Below, piece by piece: positions 3,853 to 53,276 of a DNA stretch of 64,000 nucleotides. The stretch's first letter is position 1. Every line of letters begins with the position of its first letter. The notes under the pieces are model-generated. The model ran no database searches. It was not told where the DNA came from and was given only the letters and a program-made list of their open reading frames with translations. The DNA is from Turicibacter sanguinis (lineage in GTDB: Bacteria; Bacillota_I; Bacilli_A; MOL361; Turicibacteraceae): the NCBI RefSeq assembly GCF_013046825.1, contig NZ_CP053187.1, positions 1,539,501 to 1,603,500 of the forward strand, in the 5' to 3' direction. Both the position numbers and the translations under genes were made by a program.

Positions 3853-6800
3853 GAATGAGTAAGAGTTTAACAAAAGATACCTTCCGTGATATCAAAAAAT
3901 CATTAGGAAGATTTATGTCGATTCTAATGATCTCTGCTCTTGGCGTTGCCTTCTTTGTCGGAATCAAATCTGCTCCGCTTGCTATGCAAAAGACAGTAGA
4001 TCAATACTATGATGATTATAATTTCATGGATTTGAGATTAATCTCTACCCTTGGTTTCACCGATCAGGATGTTGAAGCTGTTAAAGGTTTAAATGATGTG
4101 TCAGGGGTTTTTCCAACCTTTACACAAGATGTTTTAACAAAATATCAAGATAATGAATTAGTTATCAGATTGCATGCCTTACCAATTGATAACTTAAATT
4201 CAAATAATCCAGATTATATTAACCAAGTTAAACTAGTTGAAGGGCGATTACCTGAAAAATCTGGAGAAGCTGTTGTTGAAAAAAGTAAATATCTTGGCTC
4301 AATTGAACTAGGTTCAAAAATACAATTACAATCAGGGACAGATGACCCGTTAAGTGATACATTAAAAACAACTGAATATACGATCGTTGGAATTGTTGAA
4401 ACGCCATATTATTTGTCAGCAGATAAAGGAACATCAAATATCGGGAGCGGAAATATCTCAAGCTTTATGATGATTCCACAAAGTGATTTTAAATCAGATA
4501 TCTATACTGAAATGTATGTGAGTTTATCGAACACAAAAGCTCTTGATACATTCTCAGATCAGTATAAAGACACAGTGTCTCACGTAGTAGATGAAATTGA
4601 AGTGCTAAGCGAAACTCAAACAAAGCATCGATATGATGAAGTGATGGAAGAAGCACAGTCAGAACTTGATAAAAATCGAATAGAATACGAGGGGCAAAAA
4701 GCAGAGGCACTAGCAGAACTTGAGGATGCCGCAAGTCAAATCGAAACAGCGAAACAAGATTTAGTAAACGGAAAAGCTCAACTTGCTTCTAATAAAGCAG
4801 AGTTTGAAAGTACGATTCAATCAGCTGAGGAACAAATTGCACAGGGGGAAGCACAGTTAACACAAGCAGAGGATGAGTTAAATCGTGCGTATAATGATTT
4901 TTTAGCTCAAAAAGAAAGTGCACAGTCTCAAATAGCAGCTGCTGAGGCACAGCTTAAATCTGGGGAAGAACAAGTTGCACAACTTGATGCCTATAAAAAT
5001 CAACTACAAGCCTCACTACAAAATCCAGATTTAACAGATGAACAAAGAGTGGCTATTGAAGCGCAACTTGCTCCTATCTTACAAAGTTATGAATCAGCGC
5101 TACAGACATTAAATGCCGGAAGAGCTGAACTTGAGAAAAATAAACAAGCCTTAATTGATGGAGAAAATCAAATTTTAGCTGGAAAACGTACGATTCAAGC
5201 TTCAAAACAAGAATTAGCAGAGCAAAAAGCTAAATTAGAAACGGAAAAATCAAATGCTTATGCACAGTTTAAGACAGCAGAAGATGAAATTGAAAAAGGT
5301 GAAGCAGAATTAATTAAAGCTGAAGCGGACTATGAAAATGGAAAAGCCGAAGCAGAAGAACAATTTAAAGAGGCCGAAGAAAAGCTACAAGAAGCACAGG
5401 ATCAAATTAATGATATGACTTATCCAGAATGGTATGTGCTAGATCGAGATTCTCATTATTCATATGTAGATTATAAAAATGCGGCTTCGAGTATTGAAGC
5501 CATCTCACAAATCTTCCCGATTTTCTTCTTCTTAGTTGCTGCCTTAGTTTGTTTAACAACAATGACACGCATGGTAGATGAACAACGATTAAATATCGGA
5601 ACGTTAAAAGCATTAGGATATAGTAAAGTCAAAATTGCATCGAAGTTTTTAGTTTATGCTGCACTAGCAAGTATGACAGGGGCAATTTTAGGAACCATAA
5701 TCGGATTTAATGTTTTCCCGAATGTTGTGATTGATGCTTATGGTATGATGTATACTTTACCAGATACTATTTTAGTATTTAGTTGGCCATTGGTAATCAT
5801 TGCAACACTTATTGCAGTAGGGGTCACAACCTTATCAGCATTCTTTGCAGTCAATGCGGAATTAAAAGAAACACCATCTATTTTAATGCGACCTAAAGCA
5901 CCGAAAGAAGGGAAAAGAATTTTACTAGAACGTCTTCCATTCATTTGGAATCGCCTAAACTTCATTGCGAAAGTAACGGTACGAAACTTATTCCGTTACA
6001 AAAAACGTTTCTTCATGACAGTCTTTGGAATTGCGGGATGTACGGCGTTACTTGTAACAGGATTTGGAGTTAAAGATTCAATTCGTACAATTGTGGATAC
6101 GCAATTTGGAGAAATATTTAAATATAATATGACGATGAAGTTAAATAAAGATATTTCACTTTCAGATGAAAAAGCACTAGTTACTGAGCTACAAAATGAT
6201 CCGAGAATTCAGGGCGTTTTATCAATTCATAGTGAGAATGGTAAACTATCTGATGATGACGTGACAAAAGATGTTAATGTCTTCGTTCCCCATTCAGTTG
6301 CTGATTTAGATCCATTTGTTTCACTCAGAAATCGTGTGACACAAGAAAAGGTTGAACTTCCAGAATATGGAGTCGTGTTGAGTGAGAAAGTAGGTAAACA
6401 ATTGGGGGTTAAAGTTGGAGATAATGTGACGATTGAAAATGCCGATGGTAAAAAAGCAGAGGCTAAAGTAGAGGGAATTGTTGAAAATTATTTATTCCAT
6501 TATGTTTATTTATCACCAACTTATTATGAAGAATTATTTAATGAGACGCCAACATTTGAAAGTATTTTAGGTGTTGCTAATGATGATACGTTAGAACTTG
6601 AAGAGGCGGTTTCATCAGATTATATGAATCAAGCGGGTGTAAGTGGGATAAGTTGGAACTCATCGATTGGAAGTAATTTTGATAACATGATTCAGAATTT
6701 GAACTATGTCGTTTTATTAATGATTATTTCTGCCGGAGCTTTAGCATTCGTCGTCTTGTATAATTTAACGAATGTTAACATCTCAGAACGTATGCGTGAG

Positions 6801-20736: not shown

Positions 20737-21858
20737 ATGGATCAACTAGAACAAGAATATCAAATTTCATTATATGAAACATTAGTTGAATTAAATCATT
20801 CACCTAAAAGTGACGTTTTACTTGTTCAAAATTCGTTAACAAGTAAAATTTATATTAAGAAAATTCTGAAAAATTATAATCTAGATGTTTATCGAAAATT
20901 ACAACATATTAAAAATCGACATCTTCCAAAAATAGAAGAGATATTTGAATGTGAAGATTGTTTAATTGTTATCGAGGAATTTATCAACGGACGAACCTTA
21001 CAAGAATATATGAATGAGCCGTTAGATGAAAGTTTTGCGATTAAATGTGGAATTCGCTTATGTGAAGTACTAGAAGTACTACACAATCAAAAACCCCCAA
21101 TTATCCACCGCGATATTAAACCATCCAATGTCATGATTAGTGCAGACGGAGTTTTGAAACTGATTGATTTTGATGTATCGCGTGTTTACCAAAATAATCG
21201 CCAGCTCGATACACACATTTTAGGAACTAAAGGTTACGCTTCACCTGAGCAATTTGGATTTGAACAAACGGATGCACGCAGTGATATTTACTCGATTGGT
21301 GTGTTACTAAATGTATTAACAACTGGTGATATGTATCAAAAAAATCGATCTAAGATTGGGAGAATCATCGATAAATGTACGAAACTCTCACCGAATGATC
21401 GATATCAAAATGTGCATGAATTAAAGTCAGACTTATCCAAACTGATTCATAGGCCAATAGAACTAAAAGAATCATTAATTAGGCAACAAGTTAACCTATA
21501 TTTATCTTGTTTAGACTTTTTAAACATTCTTCCTAACAAGGAACCTAAAAATCTTGTTTTAAAAGAAATTAGACAAATTCCAGGATACCGACGTGGAAAT
21601 CTACTATTTGTCATTATTGCGACGCTTTGGTATCTGTTTTTAATATTTGGGGGAACTCAAGGTACTTCAATCATTACTTGGATTGAAAATGTATCACTCG
21701 TTATCTGTTTAATTAGTATGACGTTACTCAACAGTAATTATAAACAGCTTCAACAGAGACTTCCGGGTATAAAAGATAATTTATTGACTGGATTAATGGT
21801 TTATAATTTTATTATATTCATGATTTGGGGATTACTTAATGATTTTTTGAAACGCTAA
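20737..21858 (+). CDS. Membrane-anchored Ser/Thr protein kinase
   Basis: A 373-residue Hanks-type kinase followed by membrane helices. The catalytic loop is HRDIKPSN (His124, Asp126, Lys128, Asn131), the metal-binding motif is DFD (144-146) instead of DFG, and the activation segment reads GTKGYASPEQFGFEQTDARSDIYSIGVLL. The N-lobe lysine is probably Lys41 or Lys42 (YIKKI), and the usual glycine-rich loop is not evident. From about residue 280 there are three hydrophobic stretches (LLFVIIATLWYLFLIF, VSLVICLISMTLL, LMVYNFIIFMIWGLL), so the kinase domain faces the cytosol. There are no PASTA sensor repeats, so it is not the PrkC/StkP cell-wall kinase. It is divergent from the HTH gene. The catalytic set is otherwise complete, so activity is likely. 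Confidence 0.9.
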   Translation: MDQLEQEYQISLYETLVELNHSPKSDVLLVQNSLTSKIYIKKILKNYNLDVYRKLQHIKNRHLPKIEEIFECEDCLIVIEEFINGRTLQEYMNEPLDESFAIKCGIRLCEVLEVLHNQKPPIIHRDIKPSNVMISADGVLKLIDFDVSRVYQNNRQLDTHILGTKGYASPEQFGFEQTDARSDIYSIGVLLNVLTTGDMYQKNRSKIGRIIDKCTKLSPNDRYQNVHELKSDLSKLIHRPIELKESLIRQQVNLYLSCLDFLNILPNKEPKNLVLKEIRQIPGYRRGNLLFVIIATLWYLFLIFGGTQGTSIITWIENVSLVICLISMTLLNSNYKQLQQRLPGIKDNLLTGLMVYNFIIFMIWGLLNDFLKR

Positions 21859-22011: not shown

Positions 22012-22752
22012 ATGGGAAAAATGATTAAATGTAAAACGTGTTCTAAAGAAATAGCATCTAAGGCTAAAGTATGTCCAGAATGTGGGGCGAAAAATAAAAA
22101 ATCATTTTATAAAAAATGGTGGTTTTGGTTGATTATTTTATTTGTCATGATTGGAGCTTTCGGTGGGGAAGATTCATCAAATCATTCAGAATCAAATCAA
22201 ACTATTGAACAAGAAGTGGATCAAGTAAATAAAGTAGAAGAGACTACTCAAAAAACAGAAAATACTACTCAAGTAGAGGAAAAAGTGGAAGAAAATATTC
22301 CAACAGAATACAAATCAGCCCTAAAAAAGGCAACAACATACAGCGATATCATGAATATGTCTAAGGCAGGAGTATACGATCAACTAACATCGGAATATGG
22401 AGAGAAATTTTCACCAGAAGCTGCCCAATATGCCATTGATAATGTGCAAGTTGATTGGAAAGAAAATGCATTAAAAAAAGCAACAACGTATAGCAATACC
22501 ATGAATATGTCTAAAGCTGGTGTTTATGATCAATTAACATCAGAATACGGGGAGAAGTTTACAGCAGAAGAAGCACAGTACGCGGTGGATAATGTAAAAG
22601 CGGATTGGGAGGAAAATGCGTTAAAAAAAGCAGAAACTTATCAAAAAATGATGTCTATGTCTCCGAGCGCTATTTATGATCAATTAACATCAGAATATGG
22701 AGAGAAGTTTACAGCGGAGGAAGCACAATACGCAATTGATCATCTTCAATAA
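22012..22752 (+). CDS. Zinc-ribbon membrane protein with three Ltp repeats
   Basis: A 246-residue protein in three parts. A zinc ribbon lies at residues 5-27 (two CxxC pairs, CKTC and CPEC). One membrane helix lies at about 37-50 (WWFWLIILFVMIGAF). An acidic Glu/Gln/Thr linker is followed by three near-identical 46-48-residue helical units from about residue 102 to the end, each containing MSKAGVYDQLTSEYGEKF or a close variant. The units are Ltp-type repeats. The named Ltp protein of Streptococcus phage TP-J34 blocks DNA entry of other phages, but most bacterial members are uncharacterised. The repeats would be outside the membrane. It has an AAGGAGGACC ribosome site and stands alone. Confidence 0.9.
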   Translation: MGKMIKCKTCSKEIASKAKVCPECGAKNKKSFYKKWWFWLIILFVMIGAFGGEDSSNHSESNQTIEQEVDQVNKVEETTQKTENTTQVEEKVEENIPTEYKSALKKATTYSDIMNMSKAGVYDQLTSEYGEKFSPEAAQYAIDNVQVDWKENALKKATTYSNTMNMSKAGVYDQLTSEYGEKFTAEEAQYAVDNVKADWEENALKKAETYQKMMSMSPSAIYDQLTSEYGEKFTAEEAQYAIDHLQ

Positions 22753-49225: not shown

Positions 49226-49252
49226 ACTAAAAGATTTTTAATTCATAAGATG
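49226..49252 (+). promoter_or_regulatory. Possible sigma-K-like promoter of SR-repeat gene
   Basis: AC followed after exactly 16 nt by CATAAGATG, one base from the CATANNNTA -10 consensus, about 64 bases before the start codon. Suggestive only. Confidence 0.35.
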
Positions 49253-49315: not shown

Positions 49316-49711
49316 ATGAATTATTATCAAGCAAATGCACACAGAGGAAACGGATATTATAGAAGTGGGCGACGCACTAGTACTACATCAGGATCAAGCC
49401 GTTCACAAAGCTCAAGATCAAGCCGTTCACAAAGCTCAAGATCAAGCCGTTCACAAAGCTCACAATCAAGCCATTCACAAAGTTCAAGATTTAGTCGTTC
49501 TCAAAGTTCACAATCAAGCCGCTCTCAAAGCTCAATGAGCAGTCGTTCTCAAAGTTTTCAATCAGGCCACTCTCTAAGTTCAATGAGCAGTGGTTCACAA
49601 AGTTGGTCTAGATTTAGTCGCTCACAAAGCTCACAATCAAACCGTTCTCAAAATTCAAGAAGCCGTTCAAATAGCTCACGTAGTCAGTCACAAAGTTGGT
49701 CTAGATTTTAA
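49316..49711 (+). CDS. Ser/Arg/Gln-repeat (SR-domain) protein
   Basis: A 131-residue low-complexity protein. After a short MNYYQANAHRGNGYY start, almost everything from about residue 21 onward consists of Ser-Arg-Ser-Gln-Ser-Ser units, in the DNA a degenerate 24-bp repeat from about 49390. It ends with two SQSWSRF motifs, one internal and one terminal. It resembles eukaryotic RS domains and the Bacillus spore-coat protein CotG, whose Ser/Arg-rich repeats are phosphorylated by the kinase CotH. A protein kinase gene follows 25 bp downstream, so this is a strong candidate for that kinase's substrate. The ribosome site is AAAGGAGTG, and a sporulation-like -10 lies upstream. Confidence 0.85.
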   Translation: MNYYQANAHRGNGYYRSGRRTSTTSGSSRSQSSRSSRSQSSRSSRSQSSQSSHSQSSRFSRSQSSQSSRSQSSMSSRSQSFQSGHSLSSMSSGSQSWSRFSRSQSSQSNRSQNSRSRSNSSRSQSQSWSRF

Positions 49712-49736
49712 TTGTTAAATCTGACGCCGTGAGATT

Positions 49737-51059
49737 ATGGATAAACATTTTAAAAAAAATCAGTCTATTAACGGATATAAAGTGACAAAAAGACTAGGTG
49801 AAGGTCGATATGGGATTGCTTATTTGGCAACAAATGAGCAATCTCAAAAAGTTGTAATTAAACAATTAAAAAAAGATATGCTTAAGGAAACGAGAAAAAA
49901 ACTGTTTTATGAAGAAAAGATATTAAAAAGTTTAGATCATCCAGCTATTCCGAAATTTATTGGAAAATTTAAAGAGGGGTCAACTGAAGGATATATTCTT
50001 GAATATATTGAAGGAAAAACATTTGATCAACTCATAAGACGAAATGAAGAAGTTTTTACCAAAGATGAAATCTATCATATTGCGGATCAATTACTTGATA
50101 TTTTGCAACCACTTCATGAACAAAATATTGTGCATCGCGATATTAGGTTACCTAATGTTATTGTCAAAGACAATAAAGAGTTAGCGCTTATTGATTTTGG
50201 GCTTGCAAGATATGTAGATAATCAGCGCTATGTTAAAGCCGTTGATTACTGGTATCTAGCTGATTTCCTTCTTCATCTTTACTACACGACATATAATGGA
50301 CTTGAAACATTGGAAAGACCATGGTATGACGAGCTTGATTTATATGATGAAGAAGAAAAGTTTCTTAAAAAACTATTAGGTATTTCAAAAGATAAGGCAA
50401 AGTATCATAGTATCGATGAGATTAGACAGGATTTAAATAAAGTAAAACAGATTCATCAACGAAAAAAAAAGGAAGAGGAGGGGATTAATGTGATTAGTGA
50501 GGTTGAGATACAAAAAATTCATCTTAAAAGTTTTAGAGCGAATATTTATAATCTAGAGCCATTTAGGGTAATTGGTTTAATTGATGTTGATGTGAAATAC
50601 AGTTATGGAATAGAGCGAGTAACGTTGGCTTTTTATCGCTCATCAGGAACGAATAATGGTAAGATTAAAGGACTTTGGTATCCGATTGTCGGAATTAAAC
50701 TTGAAACTGGACCGTTTACTGAGTTTACAGATTATTTAAACCATGCTTTGACGATGTCGACAAGACGAGGATATGGTAAAAAAGGCTGGTTAGCAAAATC
50801 AGTGTTTTTTACAGATAGCTATGTTCCCAAATCACGATTCCGTGGATTTTCTAACGGACCACATTATGAACCTCTTTTTGAAATCGGAAAAACATTAATG
50901 AATCTTTATGATGAGGATAGTTATTATGAAATGCACGAACTAGATGCAAAAACATTAGACGATCTTGTAATAGAAGACAGAATACTACCTGGTAATAAAC
51001 ATACTCAAAGAGAAAACTATAATCGATTAATGGCCGATATCATTAATGGGGTTAAATAG
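49737..51059 (+). CDS. Ser/Thr protein kinase paired with SR protein
   Basis: A 440-residue Hanks-type kinase. The glycine loop is GEGRYG (21-26), Lys42 is the ATP lysine, the catalytic loop is HRDIRLPN (133-140, with Arg where most kinases have Lys), and DFG is at 153-155. The activation segment is very short, with no APE motif (ARYVDNQRYVKAVDYWYLADFLLHL), as in CotH/Bud32-like simple kinases. Residues 250-440 form a separate region (ISEVEIQKIHLKSFRANIYN, later GRGYGKKGWLAKSVFFTDSYVP) that I do not recognise. There is no membrane segment. It is 25 bp after the SR-repeat gene and almost certainly cotranscribed, so phosphorylation of the SR repeats is the natural hypothesis. The ribosome site is weak, implying coupling. 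Confidence 0.88.
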   Translation: MDKHFKKNQSINGYKVTKRLGEGRYGIAYLATNEQSQKVVIKQLKKDMLKETRKKLFYEEKILKSLDHPAIPKFIGKFKEGSTEGYILEYIEGKTFDQLIRRNEEVFTKDEIYHIADQLLDILQPLHEQNIVHRDIRLPNVIVKDNKELALIDFGLARYVDNQRYVKAVDYWYLADFLLHLYYTTYNGLETLERPWYDELDLYDEEEKFLKKLLGISKDKAKYHSIDEIRQDLNKVKQIHQRKKKEEEGINVISEVEIQKIHLKSFRANIYNLEPFRVIGLIDVDVKYSYGIERVTLAFYRSSGTNNGKIKGLWYPIVGIKLETGPFTEFTDYLNHALTMSTRRGYGKKGWLAKSVFFTDSYVPKSRFRGFSNGPHYEPLFEIGKTLMNLYDEDSYYEMHELDAKTLDDLVIEDRILPGNKHTQRENYNRLMADIINGVK

Positions 51060-51343: not shown

Positions 51344-52078
51344 ATGGCAATTATTTCAATGAAACAATTATTAGAAGCTGGGGTACACTTCGGACACCAA
51401 ACTCGTCGTTGGAACCCAAAAATGAAACAATACATCTTCACAAGCCGTAACGGAATCTACATCATCGACTTACAAAAATCATCTAAAAAAATCGATGAAG
51501 CTTATGCAGCAATGCAAGAAGTAACTAAAGATGGTGGAAAAGTAGTATTCGTTGGGACTAAAAAACAAGCTCAAGAAGCTATCAAAGAAGAAGCTATCCG
51601 TGGTGGACAATACTGGGTTAACCAACGTTGGTTAGGTGGAACTTTAACTAACTTCAAAACTATCCAATCTCGTATTGCACGTTTAGAGCAATTAGAAGCT
51701 ATGGAACAAGACGGTACTTTCGAAGTATTACCTAAAAAAGAGGTAATCAACTTACGTAAAGAAATGGAACGTTTAAATAAATTCTTAGGCGGAATCCGCG
51801 AAATGAAAGAATTACCAGCTGCAATGTTCGTAGTTGACCCACGTAGCGAGCGCATCGCAATCGCTGAAGCACGTAAATTAAACATCCCTGTATTCGGTAT
51901 CGTAGATACTAACTGTGATCCAGATGATGTTGATTACGTAATTCCTGCAAACGATGATGCAATCCGCGCTGTACGTTTAATCGTTGGTAAAATGGTTGAC
52001 GGAATCATCGAAGCTAACCAAGGTGCTGCTGAAGAAGTAGTAACTGAAGAAGTAGCTGTTGAAGCTGCTGCTGAGTAA
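51344..52078 (+). CDS. rpsB: 30S ribosomal protein S2
   Basis: A 244-residue S2. It begins [29 protein letters not shown] and includes [31 protein letters not shown] and [31 protein letters not shown]. It has an acidic Glu/Val/Ala tail of about 20 residues. Its codon use is more C-ending than its neighbours, as expected for a highly expressed gene. A strong AGGAGG site precedes it. The usual partner tsf (elongation factor Ts) is absent: a terminator follows after 11 bp, then a glycosidase gene. Confidence 0.98.
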
Positions 52079-52089
52079 TTTTTACTCTT

Positions 52090-52127
52090 AAAAACACTTA
52101 TCTCGTAAGAGATAGGTGTTTTTTTTT
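52090..52127 (+). terminator. Terminator of rpsB
   Basis: AAAAACACTTATCTC and GAGATAGGTGTTTTT form a 15-bp stem with a 4-nt loop, followed by a long T run. Confidence 0.93.
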
Positions 52128-52131
52128 AGTA

Positions 52132-52160
52132 TTGACATAAATTGTAAGCGGTGTTATAGT
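52132..52160 (+). promoter_or_regulatory. Promoter of galactanase gene with cre-like site
   Basis: TTGACA and TATAGT with a 17-nt spacer. The spacer and -10 contain TGTAAGCGGTGTTA (52143-52156), which resembles the CcpA catabolite-response element. Binding there would block RNA polymerase, so glucose repression is expected. Confidence 0.65.
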
Positions 52161-52202
52161 GATTTTAATCTACTAAGATGGAAACAAAAAGGGGGAATAA
52201 TA

Positions 52203-53276
52203 ATGAATTTTATAAAAGGAATGGATGTTTCAATGCTTCAAGAACTTGAATCAGAGGGAGCAAAATACTATTTAGACGGACAAGAAATGGATATCTTTGA
52301 CTTATTTAAGCAAAAAGGAATTAACTCTATTCGATTGAGACTTTGGAATTATCCTTATGATGAAACAGGGGCACCTTATGGTGGGGGAACGAATGACTTA
52401 GAAACAACAATCAATCTAGCTAAACGTTTAACTGAAAGTGGATTAGATTTTATTTTAGATTTTCACTATAGTGATTTTTGGGCAGATCCTAAAAAACAAG
52501 TGAAACCTAAAGCGTGGACTGATTTGACTGGCCGAGATTTAGAAAACGCCGTGCATGATTATACGTTAGAGACACTTAAAACATTAAAACAAAATGGTAT
52601 TCAACCGACATGTGTGCAAGTTGGAAATGAAATTACGTACGGATTTTTATGGGGAGACGGGCATATTTCTAATTTAGAAGGAATGACATCCCTACTTCAA
52701 GCAGGAATTTCGGCCGTTAGAGAATTCGATTCAACAATCAAAATTATGCTTCATTTAGATTATGGAACGGATAATAGACTATATCGAGAATGGTTTAGCA
52801 GTGTTAAAAAGTATGAACTCGACTTCGATTTAATTGGCATGTCGTATTATCCTTATTGGAATGGCAGTCTTGAAGTATTGTTAGCTAATATGAACGATAT
52901 TAGCCAAAGATTTGATAAAGATATTGTCATTGCAGAAACAGCTTTTTGTTATACAACGGACTCACTTGGATGTAATGGGATGATTGTTGATGAAGAGCTT
53001 GCCAAAAATGTTCCTTATGAACCAACCAAAGAAGGACAAAAGGAATACTTAGAAGCCTTACTTAATATCATTAAAAGTGTCAGAGATAATCGTGGGGTTG
53101 GTCTTATTTACTGGGAACCATCATGGTTGCCAATTCCTCATGTTGCCTGGGCTAAAGAGGCGGGGGCTAAATATGCTAATGATGAAGGTGAGCTAGGAAA
53201 CTCGTGGGCAAATCAAGCTTTATTTGATGAAAGCGGGAATGCTAATCCAGCATTAGATATTTTCTTAAATGATTAA
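52203..53276 (+). CDS. GH53 endo-beta-1,4-galactanase, cytosolic
   Basis: A 357-residue family 53 glycoside hydrolase cutting beta-1,4-galactan side chains of type I arabinogalactan. The (beta/alpha)8 barrel begins GMDVSMLQELESEGA and includes SIRLRLWNYP, FILDFHYSDFWADP, the acid/base Glu143 in VQVGNEITYG and the nucleophile Glu245 in IVIAETAF. I start it at ATG 52203 after AGGGGGAAT; the upstream frame overlaps the promoter. Most GH53 enzymes are secreted, but this one has no signal peptide, so it should act on imported galacto-oligosaccharides. No transporter adjoins. Confidence 0.92.
   Translation: MNFIKGMDVSMLQELESEGAKYYLDGQEMDIFDLFKQKGINSIRLRLWNYPYDETGAPYGGGTNDLETTINLAKRLTESGLDFILDFHYSDFWADPKKQVKPKAWTDLTGRDLENAVHDYTLETLKTLKQNGIQPTCVQVGNEITYGFLWGDGHISNLEGMTSLLQAGISAVREFDSTIKIMLHLDYGTDNRLYREWFSSVKKYELDFDLIGMSYYPYWNGSLEVLLANMNDISQRFDKDIVIAETAFCYTTDSLGCNGMIVDEELAKNVPYEPTKEGQKEYLEALLNIIKSVRDNRGVGLIYWEPSWLPIPHVAWAKEAGAKYANDEGELGNSWANQALFDESGNANPALDIFLND

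Follow-up and report, generated by a model that had tools for sequence, protein, structure and literature searches.

What is the function of a gene made up largely of Ser/Arg repeats and placed immediately in front of a protein kinase gene? The question is raised by a locus of the gut spore-former Turicibacter sanguinis, within a window of 64,000 nucleotides (the whole stretch of DNA that was analysed, G000:C1:1539501-1603500 of a 3.0-Mb genome). The first gene (49316–49711, + strand, with its ATG at 49316 and its stop at 49711) encodes an SR-repeat protein of 131 residues, a putative kinase substrate. This protein contains 60 Ser, 20 Arg and 17 Gln residues, together 74% of its length, and has a net charge of +20; a 24/48-bp tandem repeat underlies the DNA of the ORF. 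No match was found with Pfam or NCBIfam models. The description "almost wholly Ser/Arg/Gln" in the initial annotation of this DNA is slightly overstated in view of the N-terminus (MNYYQANAHRGNGYYRSGRR), which is unlike the repeats and bears a conserved motif, here RGNGYY, with the Ser/Arg/Gln repeats following. The kinase ORF (49737–51059, + strand, ATG at 49737 and stop at 51059, 440 residues) begins 25 bp downstream, and the arrangement first described, an SR-repeat ORF directly 5' of a Hanks-type kinase, was confirmed in its coordinates, its 25-bp gap and its domain match.

The Hanks-type kinase domain (49737–50489, + strand) is YbdM/PrkD-like according to a family HMM and a tree. The Pfam model Pkinase (PF00069) matches residues 14–176 (E = 9.5e-32), nothing matched beyond the domain, and the domain is confined to residues ~1–240 of the 440. 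Both the HRD motif (residues 133–135, in a catalytic loop HRDIRLPN) and the DFG motif (residues 153–155) are intact, as had been noted from the sequence, and the very short activation segment is genuine, since just 17 residues lead from the DFG Asp to the next invariant residue, Asp170, and the APE motif is absent. With its activation segment shortened and no APE motif, a YbdM/PrkD-like kinase of this kind would probably be independent of activation-loop phosphorylation. The Pfam search gave no match with the CotH domain (PF08757), in agreement with the earlier view that the kinase differs from CotH in sequence type. A CotH is encoded elsewhere in the genome (PF08757 match at G000:C1:2363625-2364875); this match is in two pieces within one open frame of 722 residues, as if interrupted by an insert. 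PrkC (Stk1/PASTA) shares the Hanks kinase fold with the window kinase, but its NCBIfam model NF033483 scored 75.3 bits, below the cut-off of 450, aligning with the kinase domain only. An anti-phage kinase (MADS6, PD-T4-6) was rejected, as the PADLOC matches span the kinase domain only; the anti-phage model NF047741 reached 92.5 bits (cut-off 460), and phage records gave just generic kinase-domain matches. A second Hanks-kinase-like ORF is located in the window at 20737–21858 (+ strand, 373 residues), with HRDIKPSN and a hydrophobic C-terminus. The ORF after it (22012–22752, + strand) resembles a zinc ribbon at its N-terminus and contains repeated units of about 50 residues.

Single-protein scans with the window kinase yielded nothing in the genome or viral contig collections, and a three-sequence alignment was required as query. 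Scanning one genome per species (84,980 species) with this alignment identified six full-length relatives, 53–61% identical in the best segment, in Paraclostridium, Clostridium, Lachnoclostridium and Christensenella, as well as many kinase-only relatives in Bacillales. A family profile was built from 25 members, window sequence included. Family members scored 286–340 bits with it (about 300 bits for the window kinase, which is itself part of the profile), against at most 116 bits for all other Hanks kinases in 17 genomes, each of which contained one family member. Invariant alignment columns include the Lys and the Asp residues of HxD and DFG; HxDxRxPN is the pattern of the catalytic loop, and there is no APE region. 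In the tree, the window kinase is nested in the clostridial group (SH-aLRT 98 and 100). The other species of its own genus that were scanned lack the family kinase and have just 28–31% identical kinase-domain matches; this absence from sister species, together with the scattered hosts, suggests horizontal transfer of the kinase. The family kinase was found in 79 of 300 Bacilli genomes, and in 8 genomes of a separate sample of 291 from the class Clostridia. In the Bacilli it is enriched with SpoIVA, which is present in 76/79 kinase-positive and 133/221 kinase-negative genomes.

A conserved non-kinase domain occupies residues ~250–440 of the kinase ORF (50490–51059, + strand, 189 residues) and had been overlooked earlier. 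In all seven relatives (the six clostridial ones and L261, described below) this third domain is a separate gene, with its own ORF immediately 3' of the kinase. In the window a Shine-Dalgarno-like GAGGAGGGG is retained, as is a GTG in frame at 50490, precisely where the separate genes start, so that the kinase ORF is a fusion from which the free third domain may still be produced. Each of the 8 genomes of the window's clade has a single copy of the domain; 42 other genomes, those of other Turicibacter among them, have none. It matched no Pfam family over the cut-off and gave no significant match in a PDB sequence search; the AlphaFold pLDDT was 61.8 for the fusion protein and poor (38.9) for the third domain alone.

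The window kinase is no orphan novelty, being a member of the known YbdM/PrkD-type family. YbdM/PrkD is one of the three Hanks kinases of B. subtilis. As query we used a putative B. subtilis YbdM sequence, both ends of which agree with primers printed in PMC3033389. A locus in a Bacillus-type genome is 84% identical to this query over its full length and reaches 277 bits against the family model; by way of this locus, B. subtilis YbdM would belong to the same family as the window kinase. Profile comparison places YbdM/PrkD and the window kinase in one family, but the window kinase is only about 30–35% identical to the YbdM type, has a shorter activation segment and carries the fused clade-specific domain. 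One YbdM-like kinase (L083, 4935–5720) has HSD in place of HRD, and two others (L093 and L114) have HQD. The B. subtilis and B. cereus enzymes are active Ser kinases in vitro (PMC3033389; PMC12583987), and YbdM phosphorylates DegS at Ser76 (PMC3033389) and CodY at Ser215 (PMC12583987) in vitro. A ybdM knockout has no strong phenotype (PMC3033389), and the gene is listed in the sigma-G (forespore) sporulation regulon (PMC3416734). The literature searched names no SR partner for YbdM. The 84%-identical locus contains a convergent small S/R/H-rich ORF (at most 88 residues, ...MFKKIIKTIKSLSSSSSDRHHRHRHYSSSRRRHYRSYSSSSGRRRHDDRYGGSHRYKRRSYSSS) about 43 bp from the kinase gene. The reported targets of YbdM stem from in vitro assays (PMC3033389, PMC12583987); a tiny SR-like gene that accompanies this kinase throughout Bacilli offers a concrete candidate substrate.

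Partner genes of this kind recur throughout the family. A Ser-rich low-complexity ORF adjoins the kinase in all six full-length clostridial relatives; including L261 (genome G838, from the 291-genome sample), the partner is located upstream in L071-L074, L076 and L261, and downstream in L075. L261 has (SR)n repeats upstream and also the third gene; with it, the clostridial relatives of the window's clade number seven, each with a Ser-rich partner and the third gene. Under a strict call (a small basic Ser/Arg/Lys/His/Tyr-rich ORF within 250 bp), an adjacent partner was found for 48 of the 77 Bacilli family kinases, compared to 4/304 control genes and 0/99 non-family kinases (Fisher 9e-36 and 3e-23, respectively, with genomes treated as independent; the counts ignore kinship, and many Paenibacillus rows are near-identical). 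Calls based on composition only took in a few false small ORFs, recognized by eye (L213, L232, L233, L236, L237, L251), which slightly inflate the loose counts; the figures given here are those of the strict 250-bp call. A partner neighbour was also present in 21 of 23 separately found YbdM-like loci. About a quarter of the Bacilli family kinases have no partner nearby. In 18 of 20 kinase-positive genomes without an adjacent copy a partner was found elsewhere in the genome, and none was found in 20 SpoIVA-positive (spore-former) genomes without the kinase. Co-occurrence across genomes, which the initial annotation had put forward as one check to make, is observed in the clostridial relatives, in Bacilli and in the YbdM-like loci; a majority of kinase homologues without an SR neighbour, which it had named as the contrary outcome, did not occur. 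Recurring in many spore-formers, among them a near relative of B. subtilis, the pairing points to a dedicated kinase-substrate module that is widespread and apparently unrecognised; no report of it was found in the literature searched, which took in few subscription journals. In Cytobacillus spongiae (L062, 4760–6553) three genes are consecutive: an unannotated partner ORF, the kinase and a Spo0M-family gene. Beside the Mesobacillus kinase (L061), the real partner gene (5866–6054, - strand), a conserved SR-like ORF, was missed by annotation, since the annotated hypothetical protein (5862–6104, - strand) is in a different frame.

The explanation that we favour, and consider fairly probable from sequence comparison, is that the two window genes encode a dedicated kinase and its disordered SR-type substrate, working in a CotH/CotG-like manner with unrelated sequence, probably at the spore surface. 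In the spore coat of Bacillus, CotH acts on two proteins, polyphosphorylating CotB and phosphorylating CotG (PMC7821199). As in the window pair, a Ser/Thr kinase gene is found there beside Ser/Lys/Arg-rich disordered proteins, but CotH belongs to PF08757 and the window kinase to PF00069. The window SR protein has Ser/Arg/Gln repeats, but its neighbour is not CotH, in contrast to CotG/CotB-like coat proteins, which are encoded beside a CotH kinase. An analogy in mechanism only is provided by eukaryotic SR proteins, on which SRPK kinases act, and by MARCKS, a target of PKC, where the substrate is a disordered Ser/Arg or basic Ser-rich tail. For the SR protein/kinase pair we infer phosphorylation, docking, location and function as follows. 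The kinase would dock the SR protein via a conserved G(H/N)xYY(K/R)-like motif and phosphorylate many of its 60 serines; the disordered polymer of charge +20 would thereby become a polyanion, by which its assembly would be controlled. The cassette of SR, kinase and third-domain genes appears to be expressed from a sigma-K promoter in the mother cell of Turicibacter and the clostridial relatives, late in sporulation, and multisite phosphorylation would then pattern a spore surface layer, as CotH does on CotB/CotG.

The partners themselves fall into several sequence types. Bacillales-type partners follow the pattern MLKKIxKxLL...YSSSD...YGHxHYKKK...SFFSS, and in some Bacilli a transmembrane helix replaces the amphipathic MLKKIxKxLL start. 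Clostridial-type partners have a G(H/N)xYY(K/R)-like motif near the N-terminus, with Ser repeats after it. One clostridial partner (L264, 1215–1490, + strand) opens with about 25 consecutive serines. A regular expression for the motif, composed after the sequences had been inspected, matched 47/53 Bacilli and 7/7 clostridial-type partners, against 8.4 and 1.3 expected from shuffles. Another clostridial branch (L077-L080/L262) has HYKxGxxGSxHYQKKG and, in place of long Ser repeats, a double zinc ribbon; these zinc ribbons were the only family detected when tested partners were compared with Pfam and NCBIfam. An alternative that we regard as unlikely, albeit the strongest of the rivals, is that the partner is a docking, activating or pseudosubstrate subunit, with the repeats as a scaffold, and that the kinase acts on other proteins. 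The short GHxYY(K/R)-like motif is indeed the sole element common to all partner types, the zinc-ribbon partners dispense with long Ser repeats, and YbdM has other substrates in vitro, i.e. DegS Ser76 (PMC3033389) and CodY Ser215 (PMC12583987). However, serine outnumbers every other residue in both partner sets (41% of clostridial-type partners' residues and 24.5% in those of Bacilli), and Ser triplets are kept (YSSSD, SSS C-terminus), features that pure docking would not require.

Promoter conservation likewise speaks for a dedicated kinase with its SR-type substrate. The sigma-K-like AC-N16-CATA element reported initially is present as a predicted sigma-K-type promoter, AC-N16-CATAAGATG (49226–49252, + strand), ending 63 bp before the SR ATG; AC-N16-CATA arises in 15/3000 dinucleotide-type shuffles of the upstream 110 bp. 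The sigma-K promoter consensus is AC-N16/17-CATANNNTA, from which the window -10 sequence CATAAGATG differs by one base, at the last position. Conservation extends to the six clostridial relatives examined, which have AC-N17-CATAATATA at the corresponding place (CATATAATA in L074), and the sigma-K-type pattern was found for the window and six clostridial partners alike (7/7, vs 4/99 control genes). The window genome encodes sigma-K (336.9 bits, over the cut-off), and the promoter element of the window's clade fits sigma-K, as predicted from the general consensus. Upstream of 37 of the 50 Bacilli partners, and of none of 151 control genes, we found GAAAC-N15-17-CGTA, which we take to be the ECF sigma-W promoter type. 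In the YbdM-like subset no sigma-W-type match was found (0/15), the partner promoter being of neither type, and a search for sigma-G promoters gave 1/23, none convincing. Since promoters of the sigma-K type, the sigma-W type and neither type are predicted, the pair is conserved while its control evidently differs between lineages.

For the spore-coat role that had been suggested at first, this means that the sigma-K-type promoter supports it in the window's clade, but that it cannot be general, as partners in Bacilli often have promoters of the sigma-W type, or of neither type, and membrane-type N-termini. In the window a spore-surface role appears most likely; in Bacilli a membrane role seems as likely as one at the spore surface, and in many of them the sigma-W-type promoter and the N-terminal amphipathic or transmembrane helix point to the membrane or envelope. 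The partners of L282, L283, L287, L291, L292 and L293 have an N-terminal transmembrane helix, all with a sigma-W-type promoter. In MARCKS, a basic tail is bound to the membrane until phosphorylation releases it. By analogy, the pair could serve the envelope-stress response as an electrostatic membrane switch, with a basic tail freed by phosphorylation, from which the Turicibacter version would be derived. The amphipathic MLKKIxKxLL or transmembrane start of Bacilli partners, followed by a tail of charge +5 to +19, would agree with such a switch, as would the sigma-W-type promoters (37/50 partners vs 0/151 control genes) and the Spo0M-family gene after the kinase in L062. Nevertheless, both the helix and a sigma-W-type promoter are missing from the window protein and its clostridial relatives, and we rate the switch as improbable. 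Still less credible is a protamine-like SR protein that compacts nucleic acid in the developing spore and is tuned by phosphorylation: the high Arg/Ser content, the strong positive charge and the listing of ybdM in the forespore sigma-G regulon (PMC3416734) would be in keeping with it, but the window's clade has a promoter of the mother-cell type, and membrane-type N-termini are found on the partners in Bacilli. Low-complexity ORFs arise easily, and lie within 250 bp of 4/304 control genes, but a chance neighbourhood can practically be dismissed, being refuted by the adjacency enrichment, the genome-level co-occurrence and the conservation of motif and promoter.

More tentatively than for the window alone, a dedicated kinase with an SR-type substrate might be a Bacillota-wide module, in which one Hanks kinase per genome has its own disordered SR-type partner. 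It would act at the spore surface under sigma-K in clostridia and Turicibacter, and at the membrane under sigma-W-type control in Bacilli, and the SR protein could be the missing physiological substrate of YbdM/PrkD. If so, spore-formers evolved dedicated SR-substrate kinases on at least two occasions, as CotH/CotG and as the YbdM/PrkD-like pair, and one such module moved between sporulation and envelope-stress control. Counting against the favoured explanation are the listing of ybdM in the sigma-G forespore regulon (PMC3416734), sigma-K being of the mother cell, the poor predicted fold of the third domain (pLDDT 38.9) and the quarter or so of Bacilli family kinases that have no neighbouring partner.

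The region downstream of the kinase (51344–53276) contains rpsB, followed by a glycosidase-like ORF. In the related genomes examined (L063-L069), the genes after rpsB are instead tsf, pyrH and frr; the only copy of rpsB has seemingly been moved.
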